DNA of 64,000 bases, taken from assembly GCA_001898225.1 (NCBI GenBank), contig MKTJ01000014.1:39619-103618 (forward strand), read 5' to 3'. Source of the DNA: Chloroflexi bacterium 54-19 (GTDB lineage Bacteria > Chloroflexota > Chloroflexia > Chloroheliales > Chloroheliaceae). The notes beneath the pieces were generated by a model, which worked only from the letters and a program-made list of their open reading frames with translations, was not told the origin of the DNA and searched no databases. Positions 33,622 to 44,179 of the stretch are shown piece after piece. Positions within the stretch are counted from its first letter, which is position 1, and every line of letters starts with the position of its first letter. The translations under genes and the position numbers were made by a program.

Positions 33622-34515
33622 TTGAGAATAACCTACGACGAAAGTGTTGCTAAAGCCCCTGCCCAGATTGAGAGGTCTTACGGTGGAGTAGCTACTTTAA
33701 TTCAACCTGAAGAAGAAGAAGTTGAGAAAAGACATCTTTTAACCTCTGCTCAAATGGCGCATTTTGTAAAGTATGGCTTTGTCAAAATTGAAGATTTGGT
33801 GCCGGACGAACTTAACCGGGCGGTTTTGGAAGACCAGAGGAGGTCGATTGGTACGAAATGGGATTTCTGGTATTTATCCGAGAATGTCCGCAAGGTTTTT
33901 GAGTTACCCCAGGTTAAAGGAATATTACAGAGTTTTGTAGGTGACGCTCCTATTTATGACCACTCTTTTTTACACCGGGTAAGGGGCCATAAAACGGTAG
34001 CGCAGGACTGGCACTCCGACTCAATGCCGGACGCCCGCCCGTTTGCCTTCGATGTCCAGGCATTCTACTGGTCACACGATGCGCCCCTTGAAATGGGTCC
34101 AACTATGTTATTACCCGGTTCGCATTTACGAAAGGTTAACATCGCCAGTATCGGTCGTTACAAAAACTTCGTGGGTCAGTTGCAATTGCCGATTAAGGCC
34201 GGGACGATTACCTTCTTCCACCATGGCCTCTGGCACTGCGCCCAACCTAATTCTACCGATACCGACCGTTTTGTCTTTAAGCTTCGCCTTCGTCCAAACC
34301 AGGAGCAAATTCGCTTATTCAATATGGACGGTTATGACAGCCCTGAAGTTATGCAAATACTACAAAAGGGTATTATACCCGGTGCTACCTACTGGCAGGG
34401 TGACTTTGACCGTCTGGATAGTGTCCAGCATGCCAGGTTCTGGCGGTATGTCACGGGAGATAATAAGGTTGACATTGCGTTTGAAACAGCCTTAACACGA
34501 ATGCATCTCCAATAG
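33622..34515 (+). CDS. PhyH-family Fe(II)/2-oxoglutarate dioxygenase, paralogue of the gene at 26833
   Basis: A 297-residue protein. The ligands are H131-S-D133 in DWHSDSMPDARP and H205 in HGLWHCAQPN, with the cosubstrate Arg in TDRFVFKLRLRP. Compared with its paralogue it has an extra N-terminal stretch of about 20 residues (RITYDESVAKAPAQIERSYG). It starts at TTG with AGAAGG directly upstream and AGGATGG a little further. Its place just after the sugar ABC operon suggests a link to the imported compound or to its aglycone. The substrate is unknown. Confidence 0.87.
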   Translation: MRITYDESVAKAPAQIERSYGGVATLIQPEEEEVEKRHLLTSAQMAHFVKYGFVKIEDLVPDELNRAVLEDQRRSIGTKWDFWYLSENVRKVFELPQVKGILQSFVGDAPIYDHSFLHRVRGHKTVAQDWHSDSMPDARPFAFDVQAFYWSHDAPLEMGPTMLLPGSHLRKVNIASIGRYKNFVGQLQLPIKAGTITFFHHGLWHCAQPNSTDTDRFVFKLRLRPNQEQIRLFNMDGYDSPEVMQILQKGIIPGATYWQGDFDRLDSVQHARFWRYVTGDNKVDIAFETALTRMHLQ

Positions 34516-34773: not shown

Positions 34774-37700
34774 CTAGGGGTTTGTAACCAGCCTTTCGAC
34801 ACCAAGTCCTACAAACAAACGGCTTTCCAGGCCTGTTAGGGGGTCAACCTCGCCTTTGTAGGCGGCCAGGGCAAAGACCAGGCCAGGCCGAGCAGACCGC
34901 ATGGCCCTTTCCAGGACGTGAAAGCCTTTAGCTTGCTGGTCGCTCAGAAGGTGACTTTCCAATTGTGAAACATGGTGGTTCTGGCTGGCCCACCCTTCCC
35001 AGCCACTGATAGCTACAGCCAGGGTTTCTTCCGGTTCCAGGCCCTGGGCCAGAGAATGTTTCACCAGGACCGGTTGGCCTCCCCGGTCAATCACCTCGTG
35101 ATAGGGACCGATTAGCTCCGGCGAGATAAACTGGGCCGGGTCCAGGTTCGGATCTTCGGCTAAAGGAAAGCGGACACTCCCTCTTGCCGCCCCCAGGTAA
35201 ATAAGGTGACGCGCCAGCCCCCTGGAACCACTTTTTACCGAAAGAAGTTGAGTTCCGAGGTCCGAGTTGACATAATCATACCGTTCTGCCAGGCCTGCCC
35301 TGGTTTTCTCGATGTATTCAGCCCAATCTTCCACATTGTTGCCTTCCGGTGACGCCGGGCTCACAATACTTTCCCCGAAAAAAGGACTTATCGATGCGCC
35401 GGATTGCCGGGCAACTTCGAAACCAAGCACCATTAATCTTTCCAGTATTGCCGGGGTTATAAGCGTACCTGACCGCCGGGCAATTTGCTCGATTGCCCTG
35501 GTCAGGCTGTTTTTGGTCACTATACCTTCCTCAAACTCGACTTCCTGGCCCAATAACCGCTCTATCTCAGCCCGGCCTTCCTCTCTCAGGCTCAACCAGG
35601 CCAGCCCCCAGACCATATCCAGGCGCGGACTCAAGGCCTTAAACAACTCCGGGTCTCGTTCAAGATGCCCAGACACACTCAGTTTTTGACTGGCCTCGGC
35701 CTGGCCGGCGGCTGTCACCGGCAAAAAAACCGCGACCATATCCCCGTCAAAATCTGCCTGTAAGAAGGTCCAGCAAACAAGCGGGTGCAAACGGATAACA
35801 CGCTCCGGCCTGCGGACCGGGTGAAAGGCGACATAGCTGGTAGGGCTCAGGGCCGGGTAGCGATAGATGATTACCCAGGCTTCGGCCATTATTCGGTCGA
35901 GCGCATGGGTGGCCCTTTCACTCCGCTGTTCAACCTCATTCCTGGCAGCCACGTCTCCACCGAATTCCCGCACCACCTGCGGCCCAAACAATTTCCAGGC
36001 CATTTCGTCGGGAAGGCCCACCTGTTCCAGGCTCAAACCTTCACCCGGTGCGGCCACTGCCCGGCCACTAAAGCTAACGTTTCCCCCAAACTGGACCGCT
36101 TCACCAGGCACCAGGGCCTCGCAATAATCTCTCAGGGCGGTCTCTAACTGCTGGAAAGCTTGCTGGCGCAAGGTTTGAGGTGCCCCGCTTTTAAGGATAC
36201 GGTCAAGGCGGTTGTTGGCACTTTCCAGCTTTTGATAGGCCGGTAATTCCTTCAAAATACCGACATTTTCCAGTTTGATTTCACCCAGCCAGGGGTGCAA
36301 GACCGGGCTAGCAAGCTTCAGAAGGGGTAAACCGGTTTCCGGGCCAGGTGCCTGGATTTTGAAAGATAATCCCCTGGCTTCGTCCATGGCCATTCGAATC
36401 CCGGCGGCAGCCAGGCGACCAGTTAGGGCTGCGAACTTTGGACTGGGCGGTAGGGCTTGCTCGATTTGGTCCTGGCTCAGGCGGAGAGATAGGGTCGCGC
36501 TGTCTGACCGGGCTACGGCCCTGGTATTAAATTGCTCCCGGATTGTTTCAAAGAATTGACCCTGGCGCAGGGCGAAATATTCCATTTGCCCCTGGTAGAA
36601 GCCTTCCAACTGACGGTCCGCCCCTATTTCTATTTCTGGAACGTATACACTTAATTTCTCGCGGGCGGTGTGAAAGAGTTTACCCCAGTAAATATAACCG
36701 ACCATACTTCGCCCTTCCAGTTCAGGACCATTTTTACCGTCTGTTAATTGCTCCAGACCGTCGGGCAATAACCCGGCCTCGGTTAACCCTTGCTTTAGTT
36801 CGTCCTGTGAGGGAGCCTGAAAAGGAGGTACAATTCGCGGTTGACCCTGGGCTTGTGCCAGGCGACCGATTAAGGCTTCCCGGATTTGCCCAAAATTCAT
36901 ACGGGTTATGAGCCCGTTAAAATTAAAGACCAACTCAACCGGGGTGCCATCCGAAAGATGAGGCATCTCGGCATCGGGCAAGATTTTACTGATTACTCCC
37001 TTGGTGCCGTGGCGGTTGCTGAATTTATCGCCAGGTTCAACCGGGTAGGGATAGGCCAGTTTTGCTGCGCATGTCTGGCTGATTACGATACCATCCTCGA
37101 AGGTAGCCTCACCAAACGAGACAAAGGCAGTCAATAGGTTGCGCCCACACCAGAAAGAGGGAACTCCTGGCGGTTCATTTCCACTCTGGACCAGGGCCGG
37201 TTCGGAGTGGCCCGGGGTCAGCCACTGGCGAAGCATATTTGCGCCCATCAACAACCGGTAAACGTCGTCGTGTTCCAGGCAGGGAATCATGGCTGCTTCC
37301 AACCCTAATGCCCGTGCGGGTTGGGTGTCCTGGATAATCAGGCGGCCATCCTGGATTTGCGCACCAAGAGCTATATGCAAAATTTTTCCAATATTCGGTC
37401 CTTCCGGGGTTTCAAAGGGGCATACCCGCCCAATATGGCCCGGCGTGAAAACTCGCTGCCGGTCTTTTACCACCAGCCGGCGCAAAATACTTTTGCTTTC
37501 CAACCAGTTCGGCAAAGCGACAGCCGGAAGATTTTCAGGTGCAGCCGGGTCGCCGGGCCACCGTTGTAAAACATTTCGTAACCAGTGGCCCTGGCTCTCG
37601 ACAAACTCGGCTATCCAGGTGTTCAGGGGACACCAGGCCCTTAAAAGGTTTTCGTCCCAGGGTAAAGTAGCGGGTGAACGGCTGAGTTTCTGGTCAATAT

Positions 37701-38019
37701 AGGCGTAAAGTTGTTCGCCCACACAGCTTATCTCGGCCCGGTCCAGTTCTTCCTCGGAGGCCACCGGGTGGACCACTCCCAGCCAGCCGTTAAACTTGAA
37801 ATAACCATCTTCGTCTACCCGTGGAATCCCGGTAAAGCTGCTGGTGGTATGACCCGACTCGTTGGAAATTGTTATCTCGATATTCAGTTCGTAAGGTCCA
37901 ACCTCCTGCACCTGGTAGCCGCTGAGTGGTAGGCGTTCGGCCAGCAAATGGGGCAAGCTGACACTTATAAAGTTATCGTAAGAAATTCTATGCCAGGGAG
38001 CCGCATAATTCAGGTCCAT
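34774..38019 (-). CDS. Compact single-chain RNA polymerase: fused beta-like and beta-prime-like halves
   Basis: 1081 residues from the ATG at 38019 (AAGGAG 9 bases upstream). Residues 1-490 match bacterial beta: GHIGRVCPFETPEGPNIG (194-211), FEDGIVIS (307-314), GDKFSNRHGTKGV with both active-site lysines K332/K340, DGTPVELVFN, RMNFGQI, and VGYIYWGKL. Residues about 580-1081 match beta-prime: the clamp-helix motif NNRLDRILKSGAP (602-614), SFSGRAVAAPG (649-659), ADFDGD with Mg-binding D756/D758/D760, LGFEVARQSGASIS, KSGSRGLARHLIYLGAARGS, and a bridge-helix-like AISGWEGWASQNHH. About 20 residues replace the roughly 230 between FEDAILIS and GDK in E. coli beta, so the flap is gone. No zinc ribbon and no alpha subunit gene are present. 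Normal beta plus beta-prime exceed 2500 residues. The closest concept is YonO-type single-chain polymerases. Probably a DNA-dependent RNA polymerase served by the adjacent sigma factor. Confidence 0.88.
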   Translation of the reverse strand: MDLNYAAPWHRISYDNFISVSLPHLLAERLPLSGYQVQEVGPYELNIEITISNESGHTTSSFTGIPRVDEDGYFKFNGWLGVVHPVASEEELDRAEISCVGEQLYAYIDQKLSRSPATLPWDENLLRAWCPLNTWIAEFVESQGHWLRNVLQRWPGDPAAPENLPAVALPNWLESKSILRRLVVKDRQRVFTPGHIGRVCPFETPEGPNIGKILHIALGAQIQDGRLIIQDTQPARALGLEAAMIPCLEHDDVYRLLMGANMLRQWLTPGHSEPALVQSGNEPPGVPSFWCGRNLLTAFVSFGEATFEDGIVISQTCAAKLAYPYPVEPGDKFSNRHGTKGVISKILPDAEMPHLSDGTPVELVFNFNGLITRMNFGQIREALIGRLAQAQGQPRIVPPFQAPSQDELKQGLTEAGLLPDGLEQLTDGKNGPELEGRSMVGYIYWGKLFHTAREKLSVYVPEIEIGADRQLEGFYQGQMEYFALRQGQFFETIREQFNTRAVARSDSATLSLRLSQDQIEQALPPSPKFAALTGRLAAAGIRMAMDEARGLSFKIQAPGPETGLPLLKLASPVLHPWLGEIKLENVGILKELPAYQKLESANNRLDRILKSGAPQTLRQQAFQQLETALRDYCEALVPGEAVQFGGNVSFSGRAVAAPGEGLSLEQVGLPDEMAWKLFGPQVVREFGGDVAARNEVEQRSERATHALDRIMAEAWVIIYRYPALSPTSYVAFHPVRRPERVIRLHPLVCWTFLQADFDGDMVAVFLPVTAAGQAEASQKLSVSGHLERDPELFKALSPRLDMVWGLAWLSLREEGRAEIERLLGQEVEFEEGIVTKNSLTRAIEQIARRSGTLITPAILERLMVLGFEVARQSGASISPFFGESIVSPASPEGNNVEDWAEYIEKTRAGLAERYDYVNSDLGTQLLSVKSGSRGLARHLIYLGAARGSVRFPLAEDPNLDPAQFISPELIGPYHEVIDRGGQPVLVKHSLAQGLEPEETLAVAISGWEGWASQNHHVSQLESHLLSDQQAKGFHVLERAMRSARPGLVFALAAYKGEVDPLTGLESRLFVGLGVERLVTNP

Positions 38020-38067
38020 TTGCAATAACTCCTTATTAATTCCGGTTTGAATAGTTTCGCACCCTCT

Positions 38068-38673
38068 TTAGTCCTTCTCTACTTCTCCAGGTTTCTCCCA
38101 TTTACGGGCAAGCAATTTGTTCGAGTAGTAGAGCCGGGACTTGACCGTACCTTCAGGAATACCCAGCTTTTGGGCGACTTCGCGGGTTTCAAGCTGGGCG
38201 TCGTGAATGAGGCTAAAGACTTCTCGCTTTTCGTCAGGGAGTTCATCAATCATCCGGCGCAATTCCCGGTAGGTTTCGATTTTTTCAAGGGTCTCGGCGG
38301 GACCGAGCGAACCTTCTTCAAGGTAACGCGTCGAAAACCAGTTTTCCTGCCCTTCTTCCCCTTCGAATAATTCGTCAGGCGGTTCGAGGGGTAACTGGGG
38401 ATGCCGCCGGACGGTACGCAAATGGTTCAAGGCCAGGTTTGTACTGAGTTTGAGCAACCAACCCTGAAAGTTGCCCCGACCCTCCCATTGTTGGGCGTTA
38501 GTCCAGACCCGCAAAAAGACCTCTTGCACCAGATCGTTAGCAACTTCATCGTTTCGAACGATACCTCGCAACTGACGCCAGACAACGCTGTTATAACGAT
38601 GGTAGATAACTTCATAGGCATCTTCATCACCATTTTGGATTCTGAGGATAAGTTGCCGGTCTGTCTGTTCCAT
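38068..38673 (-). CDS. ECF-type RNA polymerase sigma factor
   Basis: A 201-residue sigma-70 family protein with only regions 2 and 4. Region 2 (about 10-95) has EVANDLVQEVFLRVW and NFQGWLLKLSTNLALNHLR. An acidic linker (about 95-125) follows. Region 4 (about 138-192) has IDELPDEKREVFSLIHDAQL and VAQKLGIPEGTVKSRLY. It lacks region 3 and the long N-terminus of housekeeping sigma. The AGCGAGGGG before the ATG is very close to the start codon. It is 48 bp upstream of the single-chain polymerase gene on the same strand, which strongly suggests that the two work together. No recognisable anti-sigma gene adjoins it. The small membrane peptide upstream is the only candidate. Confidence 0.93.
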   Translation of the reverse strand: MEQTDRQLILRIQNGDEDAYEVIYHRYNSVVWRQLRGIVRNDEVANDLVQEVFLRVWTNAQQWEGRGNFQGWLLKLSTNLALNHLRTVRRHPQLPLEPPDELFEGEEGQENWFSTRYLEEGSLGPAETLEKIETYRELRRMIDELPDEKREVFSLIHDAQLETREVAQKLGIPEGTVKSRLYYSNKLLARKWEKPGEVEKD

Positions 38674-38697: not shown

Positions 38698-38919
38698 TCA
38701 GCCTCTACCAAATAGACACCGGTCAGGTGGCGAAAGTTCATTTTTAGAAATGCTAAACCCTCTCAGTAGTTGTAAAGTAATCTGTCTTAACGGTGCAAAA
38801 CGACCAATTGCCAACAGAACAAAACACAAGACGAATAACCCAAACAAATGTACCAGAGTAAGAATCGCCAAGTTAATAAATATGATGAGTAGGATAATGA
38901 TTCTTATCCTACTCATCAT
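38698..38919 (-). CDS. Possible small membrane peptide upstream of the sigma gene
   Basis: A 73-codon frame whose first half is strongly hydrophobic (RIIILLIIFINLAILTL and LFGLFVLCFVLLAIG), enough for one or two membrane helices. A basic segment and a polar tail follow. It ends 24 bp before the sigma start. Against it: the ribosome site is weak and the start lies inside the 16-bp inverted repeat. For it: tight spacing and composition. If real, it might be a membrane regulator of the sigma factor. No family is recognised. Confidence 0.35.
   Translation of the reverse strand: MMSRIRIIILLIIFINLAILTLVHLFGLFVLCFVLLAIGRFAPLRQITLQLLRGFSISKNELSPPDRCLFGRG
38882..38919. repeat. Perfect 16-bp inverted repeat upstream of the sigma-polymerase pair
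   Basis: ATGATGAGTAGGATAA (38882-38897) and its exact reverse complement (38904-38919) are separated by 6 bases. It lies 23 bp after the stop codon of the monooxygenase-like gene and about 210 bp before the sigma start. On the minus strand ATTTATTAA follows. It could be a terminator of the upstream gene, an operator for the sigma operon, or both. Confidence 0.65.
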
Positions 38920-42640: not shown

Positions 42641-42768
42641 GGCTCTTATCAAGAGAGGTGGAGGGTATTACGGCCCGATGAAGCCCGGCAACCAACGCAA
42701 TCAAAAACCAATATGCGTATGGTGCCAATTCCGGCGCTGCCAGTCCTGGCAAGCGCAAGATAAGGGAA
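42641..42768 (+). promoter_or_regulatory. SAM-I (S-box) riboswitch
   Basis: All conserved S-box blocks are present. P1 5' strand is CTCTTATCAAGAG. AGGTGGAGGG and GGCCCGATGAAGCCCGGCAAC follow in P2 and the kink-turn region. GGTGCCAATTCC lies in P3/P4, and P1 closes with GATAAGGG (42759-42766). The last element is fully complementary to CCCTTATC (42823-42830) in the terminator, giving a ready antiterminator switch. SAM binding should favour termination before thrC. Confidence 0.95.
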
Positions 42769-42922: not shown

Positions 42923-44179
42923 ATGACCCAGGTTTTAGAAAATACGACTACCGCCGCCACCGCCCTCAGGTGTAAAGAGTGTGGCGAACGTTACCCGATT
43001 GCTGCCAACCATGTCTGCGAGGAATGTTTCGGCCCGCTCGAAGTCGAGTACGATTTTAGCGGTCTCGACCCGGTGTCCCTGAAAGCCCAGATTGAGGCCG
43101 GGCCCAAGAACCTGTGGCGGTATGCGCCCCTGCTCCCGGCCAAACCTTACGACCGCAGCGTGCAGGGTGTCGGCTTTACCCCGTTACAGCGGGCCTATAA
43201 CCTGGGGGCCGAACTCGGCCTGGACGAGCTCTATGTAAAAAATGATGCCCTCAACCCGACGCACTCCTTCAAAGACCGCGTGGTTGCCATCGCGACCGCC
43301 AAGGCAATTGAATTCGGTTTTGATACAATTGCCTGCGCCTCCACCGGTAACCTGGCCGGGGCGGTCGCTGCTGCCGGGACGCGGGCCGGTCTTAAAACTT
43401 ATGTTTTTGTCCCGTCCAATATCGAACCCGGCAAAATCTTGCAGGCCAGCATTTACGGCGCGACCATCGTCCCGGTCGACGGCACGTACGACGATGTGAA
43501 CCGCCTCGCAAGCCAGGTGGCCGACGAATTCGGCTGGGCCTTTGTCAATATCAATATGCGGCCTTTCTACAGCGAGGGTTCTCGGACGCTGGCCTACGAG
43601 ACTGCTGAGCAGTTGGGCTGGCGCTTGCCCGACCATGTCGTTATCCCGATTGCCAGCGGTTCTCTCTATACCAAAATCACCAAGGGCTTTGAAGAATTGA
43701 TTAAAATCGGCCTGGTCAAGGACCAGACCCTCCCGGCCATTTCGGGCGCCCAGGCCCAGGGTTGCAACCCCGTGGCGGCGGCTTTTGCTGAACATTCCAA
43801 AGAAATCATCCCGGTAAAACAGCCTACCACAATTGCCCATTCGCTGGCGATTGGCAGCCCTGCCGACGGTTTTTACAGCCTGAAAATTGCCCAGCAGACG
43901 GGAGGAACTATCGAGCAGGTTACCGACGAGGAGATCGTGGATGCCGTCCAGTTACTGGCCCGGACCGAGGGAATTTTCACCGAACCGGCGGGCGGTGTGA
44001 CCCTGGCGACTTTGCGGAAGTTAGCCAGACAGGGCAAGATTGGCCGGGACGAAGTGACGGTGCTGTATATTACCGGAAACGGCCTCAAGACCCAGAGCGC
44101 CTTTGATGGTCTTATCCCGGTGCCCGCGGCCATTACCCCTAAACTGGGTGTTTTTGAAAAGTGGTTGGGGCAGAATTAG
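42923..44179 (+). CDS. thrC: Threonine synthase
   Basis: A 418-residue fold-type II PLP enzyme. An N-terminal zinc-ribbon-like segment (LRCKECGERYP, HVCEECFGPLEV) is followed by PLTxxxxL-type sequence. The cofactor lysine is in NPTHSFKDRVVA, then CASTGNLAGAVAAAG, with the PLP phosphate loop in IPIASGSLYTKI. It converts O-phosphohomoserine to threonine. The size and N-terminal ribbon fit the short bacterial ThrC class that takes part in threonine branch control. AAAGGAGA lies before the ATG. It is preceded by a SAM-I riboswitch, so its expression should fall when SAM is high. Confidence 0.93.
   Translation: MTQVLENTTTAATALRCKECGERYPIAANHVCEECFGPLEVEYDFSGLDPVSLKAQIEAGPKNLWRYAPLLPAKPYDRSVQGVGFTPLQRAYNLGAELGLDELYVKNDALNPTHSFKDRVVAIATAKAIEFGFDTIACASTGNLAGAVAAAGTRAGLKTYVFVPSNIEPGKILQASIYGATIVPVDGTYDDVNRLASQVADEFGWAFVNINMRPFYSEGSRTLAYETAEQLGWRLPDHVVIPIASGSLYTKITKGFEELIKIGLVKDQTLPAISGAQAQGCNPVAAAFAEHSKEIIPVKQPTTIAHSLAIGSPADGFYSLKIAQQTGGTIEQVTDEEIVDAVQLLARTEGIFTEPAGGVTLATLRKLARQGKIGRDEVTVLYITGNGLKTQSAFDGLIPVPAAITPKLGVFEKWLGQN

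Follow-up and report, generated by a model that had tools for sequence, protein, structure and literature searches.

A sigma-linked, predicted single-chain mini-RNA polymerase encoded on a Chloroflexota chromosome and scattered over eight bacterial phyla

In bacterial RNA polymerase (RNAP), RpoB (beta) and RpoC (beta') are two separate subunits with a flap, a clamp body and a trigger loop. Full-length RpoB-RpoC fusions, which carry beta and then beta' in one chain, are covered by models of 2,839-2,890 positions (NF007172 and NF011417). Such fusions are generally the cell's only RNAP. Among the compact enzymes, YonO of phage SPbeta is, in the part of the report cited here, a prophage-encoded single chain of about 100 kDa with two barrels, no recognisable trigger loop and few residues in common with multisubunit RNAP (PMC5467207). 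P23-45 gp64/gp96, crAss-like gp66 and QDE-1 are single-chain two-barrel RNAPs as well, all of them phage or eukaryotic enzymes, and the section cited here also mentions fused-barrel derivatives of multisubunit RNAP that are left unnamed there (PMC10770324). Here we describe a two-gene unit found in a 64,000-nucleotide stretch of the genome of Chloroflexi bacterium 54-19 (the window). It encodes an extracytoplasmic function (ECF) sigma factor and, downstream on the same strand, a single chain of 1,081 residues, compared with 2,749 for the two E. coli subunits, which joins a beta-like to a beta'-like part and which we call the mini-polymerase. The chain resembles YonO in its size of about 100 kDa and its two barrels, shows no recognisable trigger-loop motif and, like the full-length fusions, has beta before beta', though unlike them it occurs beside normal subunits. 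In contrast to YonO, it is readily alignable to multisubunit RNAP, apparently chromosomal and linked to a sigma factor. As a first-pass annotation of the window had claimed, its kinship with bacterial RNAP is far closer than that reported for YonO in the cited part of PMC5467207. In the open-access full-text literature we met no account of a compact RNAP linked to a sigma factor.

The mini-polymerase lies in one open frame on the minus strand, 34774..38025, of 1,083 codons if counted from a TTG. This frame carries all six motifs quoted in the first-pass annotation, beta-type and then beta-prime-type. An ATG at 38019, nine bases past an AAGGAG (38034-38029), is the better start, and with it the gene has the 1,081 codons and the 48 bp to the sigma stop codon that the annotation had given. 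No frameshift breaks the gene, and besides the window protein there are 119 full-length relatives at 44-49% identity among the matches listed. The features of the two genes are as follows, with residue numbers counted from the TTG at 38025:

34774..38019, minus strand: single-chain mini-RNA polymerase gene, ATG start, 1,081 residues; the TTG at 38025 is also possible
35740..35754, minus strand: catalytic DFDGD, residues 758-762
36112..36237, minus strand: clamp-helix hairpin, residues 597-638, in ordinary RNAP the docking place of sigma region 2
37036..37071, minus strand: flap junction (residues 319-330), 12 residues long; at this place E. coli beta is longer by about 235, flap and insert taken together
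38029..38034, minus strand: AAGGAG, likely ribosome-binding site of the polymerase gene
38068..38673, minus strand: ECF-type sigma factor gene, regions 2 and 4, 201 residues

Both halves of the chain are real: by profile comparison, with structure also cited, it is homologous to both RpoB and RpoC. Pfam recognises Rpb2_6 (2.5e-35, residues 329-459), Rpb1_2 (1.9e-16, residues 711-780) and Rpb2_3 (3e-8, residues 191-224), and colinear homology spans beta 442-1342 and beta' 269-787, with 31% identity to beta over 444 aligned columns. The catalytic aspartates and lysines, the fork region, the clamp helices and the bridge helix are shared with bacterial RpoB/RpoC, whereas the flap, the clamp body, about beta 149-441 and the trigger-loop motif are missing. 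We followed these parts through an alignment of 112 members, which omits truncated, broken and near-duplicate copies, so that its conservation counts favour intact genes. D462 and D464 are present in all 112, D460 in 107, K1065 in 109 and K1073 in 110. The flap region amounts to 12 residues in 108 members and to 13-26 in the other four. The clamp-helix hairpin is kept, at 42 residues in 100 of the 112, with the surrounding clamp deleted. No aligned member matches the trigger-loop motif pattern, and 59-105 residues come after the bridge-helix segment. On the face of the clamp helices, R278 is kept in 99 members and R281 in 93, and R275 and E295, invariant in 22/22 bacterial RpoC, are mostly Ala in the mini-polymerase family.

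Although Pfam and NCBIfam name only RpoB and RpoC domains in this protein (in NCBIfam 2026 all 25 scanned members match RpoB/RpoC-type models only, and the collection has no model of the family's own), the notion that the gene is an ordinary rpoB-rpoC fusion, a misassembly or a pseudogene is refuted. The same flap deletion recurs in 112 members, the window polymerase scores at most 170 bits in NCBIfam where the cut-offs are 355 to 5,372 bits, and normal RpoB and RpoC are both matched alongside in 11/12 other host genomes. Where the listed relatives are named in their sources, they appear as 'hypothetical protein' or under lists of Pfam domains. The 7,641 homologues found at E 1e-3 may include ordinary RpoB; only the 120 listed ones, the window protein included, are sure.

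The predicted pairing of this polymerase with a sigma factor is conserved. The sigma protein has regions 2 (Pfam, 3.1e-14) and 4 (3.1e-12) and only these, as in ECF sigma factors. An alignment-based scan of genome contigs produced 52 loci, of which 45 (L006-L050) are family members and seven, judged from weak scores, are other RNA polymerase genes. Each of the 45 has a sigma gene ahead of the polymerase gene and in the same orientation, and in two extra loci (L230 and L231) there is one on the polymerase's strand within the fetched stretch. Some of the nearest sigma relatives sit on contigs equal in size to those of mini-polymerase relatives (e.g. 338,523 and 163,417 bases). Across 37 complete pairs, distances between the sigmas track those between the polymerases (r 0.93, common ancestry not controlled for). 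The two genes overlap by four bases in 9/45 loci and are 1.3-2.0 kb apart in L028, L033, L034 and L049; in some Latescibacterota an ABC transporter open reading frame (ORF) stands between them (L028:2683-4476, 597 residues; L033:6165-7958, a clustered homologue). ECF sigma factors commonly, though not universally, have a linked anti-sigma gene; no third gene is broadly conserved at the loci, whose neighbours were not scanned singly for anti-sigma domains. Genes for ABC transporters, PhyH and GFO/IDH proteins lie near the cassette in some loci, and no other gene family is common to more than eight loci, these being near relatives; a search for conserved neighbours yielded nothing beyond close kin.

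We tentatively favour, at a little under even chances, the reading that the ECF sigma factor and the mini-polymerase form a private RNA polymerase that would transcribe mainly its own operon. It is preferred to the view that the sigma works with the host polymerase because the pairing holds in every one of the 45 loci and the clamp-helix hairpin survives. The chain, a reduced RpoB fused to a reduced RpoC, would make RNA; sigma region 2 would dock on the kept clamp helices through an altered interface, and the sigma would take the mini-polymerase to the sequence TGAAC-N15-GGTGTC ahead of the operon. A positive-feedback loop would thereby close, which the host polymerase would have to start. A bolder version, which we hold more loosely and consider rather less probable, is that the unit represents a second self-contained chromosomal transcription system, in which a sigma-dependent single chain initiates without alpha, omega, flap or trigger loop, serves one promoter, its own, moves between phyla as an autocatalytic two-gene loop and has a rewritten clamp-helix face that insulates it from host sigmas.

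The putative target of the sigma is a promoter with paired -35 and -10 elements, as expected of an ECF sigma factor on sequence grounds:

38702..38708, minus strand: GTAGAGG, lying past the -10 and with similar sequences in many relatives; probably the start region or a Shine-Dalgarno sequence
38715..38740, minus strand: conserved operon promoter, with -35-like TGAAC (38736-38740), N15 and -10-like GGTGTC (38715-38720)

Of 34 non-redundant regions ahead of the sigma gene, 16 contain the pattern TGAAC-N17-TGTC, against at most 3 in 20 base shuffles. Across 46 regions (the window plus 45), TGAAC-N15-GGTGTC is present in 29 and a looser match in 11 more, six of which read GGCGTC with the spacing unchanged; the pattern is lacking in six, in two of which a contig end cuts the sigma gene. 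A tightened motif gave 26 matches in 16 host genomes against 15 for the reversed pattern. Fourteen of the 26 mark the promoter of the cassette itself, in 14 genomes, and the other 12 fall in frames of at least 246 codons. In the window's own genome an extended motif, with up to three mismatches allowed, occurs once, at the operon, and the -10 alone with the downstream element gave three matches, the own promoter included, against six for the reversal, i.e. nothing above background. A wider regulon was therefore rejected, and the promoter searches in the own and 16 host genomes suggest that the regulon recognisable for the sigma is the operon that encodes it, with a few further sites at the very most. 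Of the 'private regulon' that the first-pass annotation had considered, there remains what looks like a self-activating loop: in the 16 host genomes only the own promoter stands above background.

Several observations weigh against a private polymerase. In the own genome, a looser promoter pattern gave 14 matches against 4 for its reversal, a result that stands against the rejection of a wider regulon. Eight of the 13 non-operon matches have the wrong spacing (N14) and ten lie in frames of at least 146 codons; of the other three, one is in a 133-codon frame (contig C48) and two look intergenic (on C35, and C89:31648). The last (G000:C89:31648-31673, TGAACTTTTCCCGTTTGGGAGGTGTC) lies 102 bases ahead of a transporter solute-binding-like gene and may be a second target of the sigma. 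Position in a long frame counts for little against a match, since several of the cassettes' own promoters are so placed too. Then, according to the cited parts of two reports, the docking sites on ordinary RNAP are the clamp helices for sigma region 2 and the flap tip for region 4 (PMC10216364), and without the flap tip use of the -35 suffers while that of the -10 does not (PMC8321222); with the flap gone in 112/112 members (12-26 residues left), sigma region 4 would be without its usual dock. R275Q, E295K and A302D impair holoenzyme formation in E. coli, as stated in the cited part of PMC8321222, and R275 and E295, though needed for sigma binding, are replaced in most members; the mostly kept R278 and R281 belong to the sigma32 interface too, in the cited part of PMC10216364. 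The promoter has a rigid spacing between its -35 and -10, a feature more in keeping with a polymerase that has a flap, such as that of the host. The partner sigmas should still bind host RNAP, because their consensus retains the usual D-x-x-QE motif of region 2.2, and, given this core-binding motif and the fixed spacing, the sigma can very probably still use that enzyme. Moreover, a loop with itself as its only target has no obvious use. A search with the sigma part for sigma-polymerase fusions yielded two matches, each of them another large protein that carries a sigma domain, and fusion was dropped as a proof of contact. A dedicated role for the sigma in promoter recognition by the mini-polymerase, as put forward in the first-pass annotation, is thus not established.

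Much of this agrees with a division of labour that we consider a serious, if lesser, contender: the sigma would work with the host polymerase only, by ordinary ECF activation, while the mini-polymerase, in the manner of YonO or QDE-1, would need no sigma and would act on RNA or on DNA that is melted, nicked or damaged. The lost flap and lost R275/E295 contacts, the usual ECF layout of the promoter and the intact core-binding motif would all follow, and there is a precedent in single-chain YonO, which extends RNA on scaffolds and for which the cited part of PMC5467207 leaves open the need for a promoter factor. Unexplained by it are the tie to a sigma in 45/45 loci, for a sigma without a clear other target, and the retention of the clamp hairpin when the clamp body around it has been deleted.

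The catalytic core bears on whether the chain makes RNA at all. The first catalytic aspartate, D460, is Asn (NFDGD) in P0035, P0061, P0082, P0091 and P0098, five of the 112, as well as in loci L008 and L011, a change that would be expected to hurt catalysis in ordinary RNAP. In-frame stops interrupt the copies in L022 (Dictyobacter kobayashii) and L020, and the frame of L049 is in pieces; the polymerase gene can therefore be lost. Together with a trigger-loop motif missing throughout, such copies could suggest a catalytically dead or decaying protein kept as a decoy or left as a relic. We regard this as improbable: D462 and D464 are invariant and the lysines nearly so (109-110 of 112) in the alignment from which broken and partial copies were left out, and the frames of relatives remain long and unbroken even where pairwise identity falls to 37%, which would speak for purifying selection.

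For the origin of the chain we turned to RNAP genes on viral contigs, keeping 80 of the 184 loci found. Where the genes are complete, they encode either beta' and beta as a split pair or a fused chain of about 1,450-2,300 residues. Fused-type chains from IMG/VR (e.g. L087, L097 and L114) share with the mini-polymerase the beta-beta' order in one chain; they are mostly of about 2,060 residues with about 100 residues in the flap region, whereas the mini-polymerase is smaller and lacks the flap, and 7/12 have a trigger-loop motif by pattern against 0/112. In an IQ-TREE phylogeny of 548 columns the mini-polymerase clade (ultrafast bootstrap, UFB, 100) is sister to eight viral fused-type RNAPs (UFB 100), with bacterial RpoB/C next (UFB 94). 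A viral sister group appears in three of four trees, including the concatenated and beta' ones, and this, with the common order of the halves, is what a domesticated phage polymerase would predict, i.e. an ancestry among viral single-chain RNAPs (about 2,000 residues), the sigma having been acquired later. Such descent is conceivable and well worth keeping in view, but somewhat doubtful. The beta-only tree lacks the viral sister group, the approximately unbiased (AU) test does not reject a grouping of mini-polymerases with bacteria (p 0.085), and it is to bacterial RpoC, not to these viral chains, that the clamp helices can be aligned. Nor does a sigma gene occur within the fetched flanks of any of the 80 viral loci, and 50,697 phage records hold no match to the mini-polymerase at 80% coverage. 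With three of four trees in favour and the AU test indecisive, we do not treat a viral origin as settled. The viral set (L080-L136, e.g. L087:8855-15046) includes several fused beta-beta' polymerases with a trigger-loop motif; a second ORF encodes the final portion of beta' in L082 and L085, and two scanned fused polymerases match PHROGs families only in parts.

The two-gene unit is scattered over eight bacterial phyla. The 45 loci, nearly all from metagenome bins, include 11 from Latescibacterota, 10 from Armatimonadota, nine from Chloroflexota, six from Poribacteria, four from Gemmatimonadota and one each from Hydrogenedentota, Myxococcales and Phycisphaerales. Among 61 genomes, comprising the own genome and 60 relatives from genus to class level, only the own carries the unit, and the absence from close relatives suggests that it spreads between distant bacteria as a pair. 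Five of 400 sampled Chloroflexota genomes carry the mini-polymerase, the own included; by position, G372 corresponds to the broken copy L022 and G312 to the partial copy L050. Twelve host genomes have one copy each, and 72,556 plasmid records contained no match at 80% coverage. Scanned neighbours are mostly metabolic or transport genes, though not all flanks were searched for phage genes. An attempt to find the empty site in the same genus failed, the flanking permease having only 36% relatives in 2/4 genomes, with no syntenic site recognisable.

The genome to which the window belongs measures 9.25 Mb and is 93% complete; the window is part of its contig C14. Of the ordinary RNAP genes expected alongside, rpoC (1,542 residues, on C35) and rpoA (on C6) are present, and rpoB was not found in the assembly with PF00562. 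The rpoC gene starts 400 bases from a contig end (G000 C35:1-401), with no recognisable rpoB end upstream. Since rpoB and rpoC adjoin in many relatives and rpoC is so close to the contig end, the missing rpoB is taken as an assembly gap.

Should the mini-polymerase prove active, bacterial RNA polymerase would have a sigma-linked relative of unusually small size, one that would reveal what initiation truly needs of the enzyme and would be a candidate for an orthogonal polymerase-promoter pair. The family allows direct tests of sigma function without a flap and of the kinship between one-chain and several-chain polymerases. A private machine, if true, would add to the known ways in which bacterial chromosomes keep a spare polymerase. 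The defence response that the first-pass annotation also considered is unsupported: PADLOC gave no match for the polymerase and matched the sigma weakly to two CARF models (E 7.5e-4 and 9e-3), over region 4.

Elsewhere in the window, a PhyH-family dioxygenase gene (33622-34515, plus strand) converges with the polymerase gene; PhyH genes are also near the cassette in L024 and its kin, possibly by chance. On the plus strand, a SAM riboswitch (42643-42766, 72.6 bits) precedes a pyridoxal-phosphate enzyme gene (42923-44179) that we take to be threonine synthase-like.

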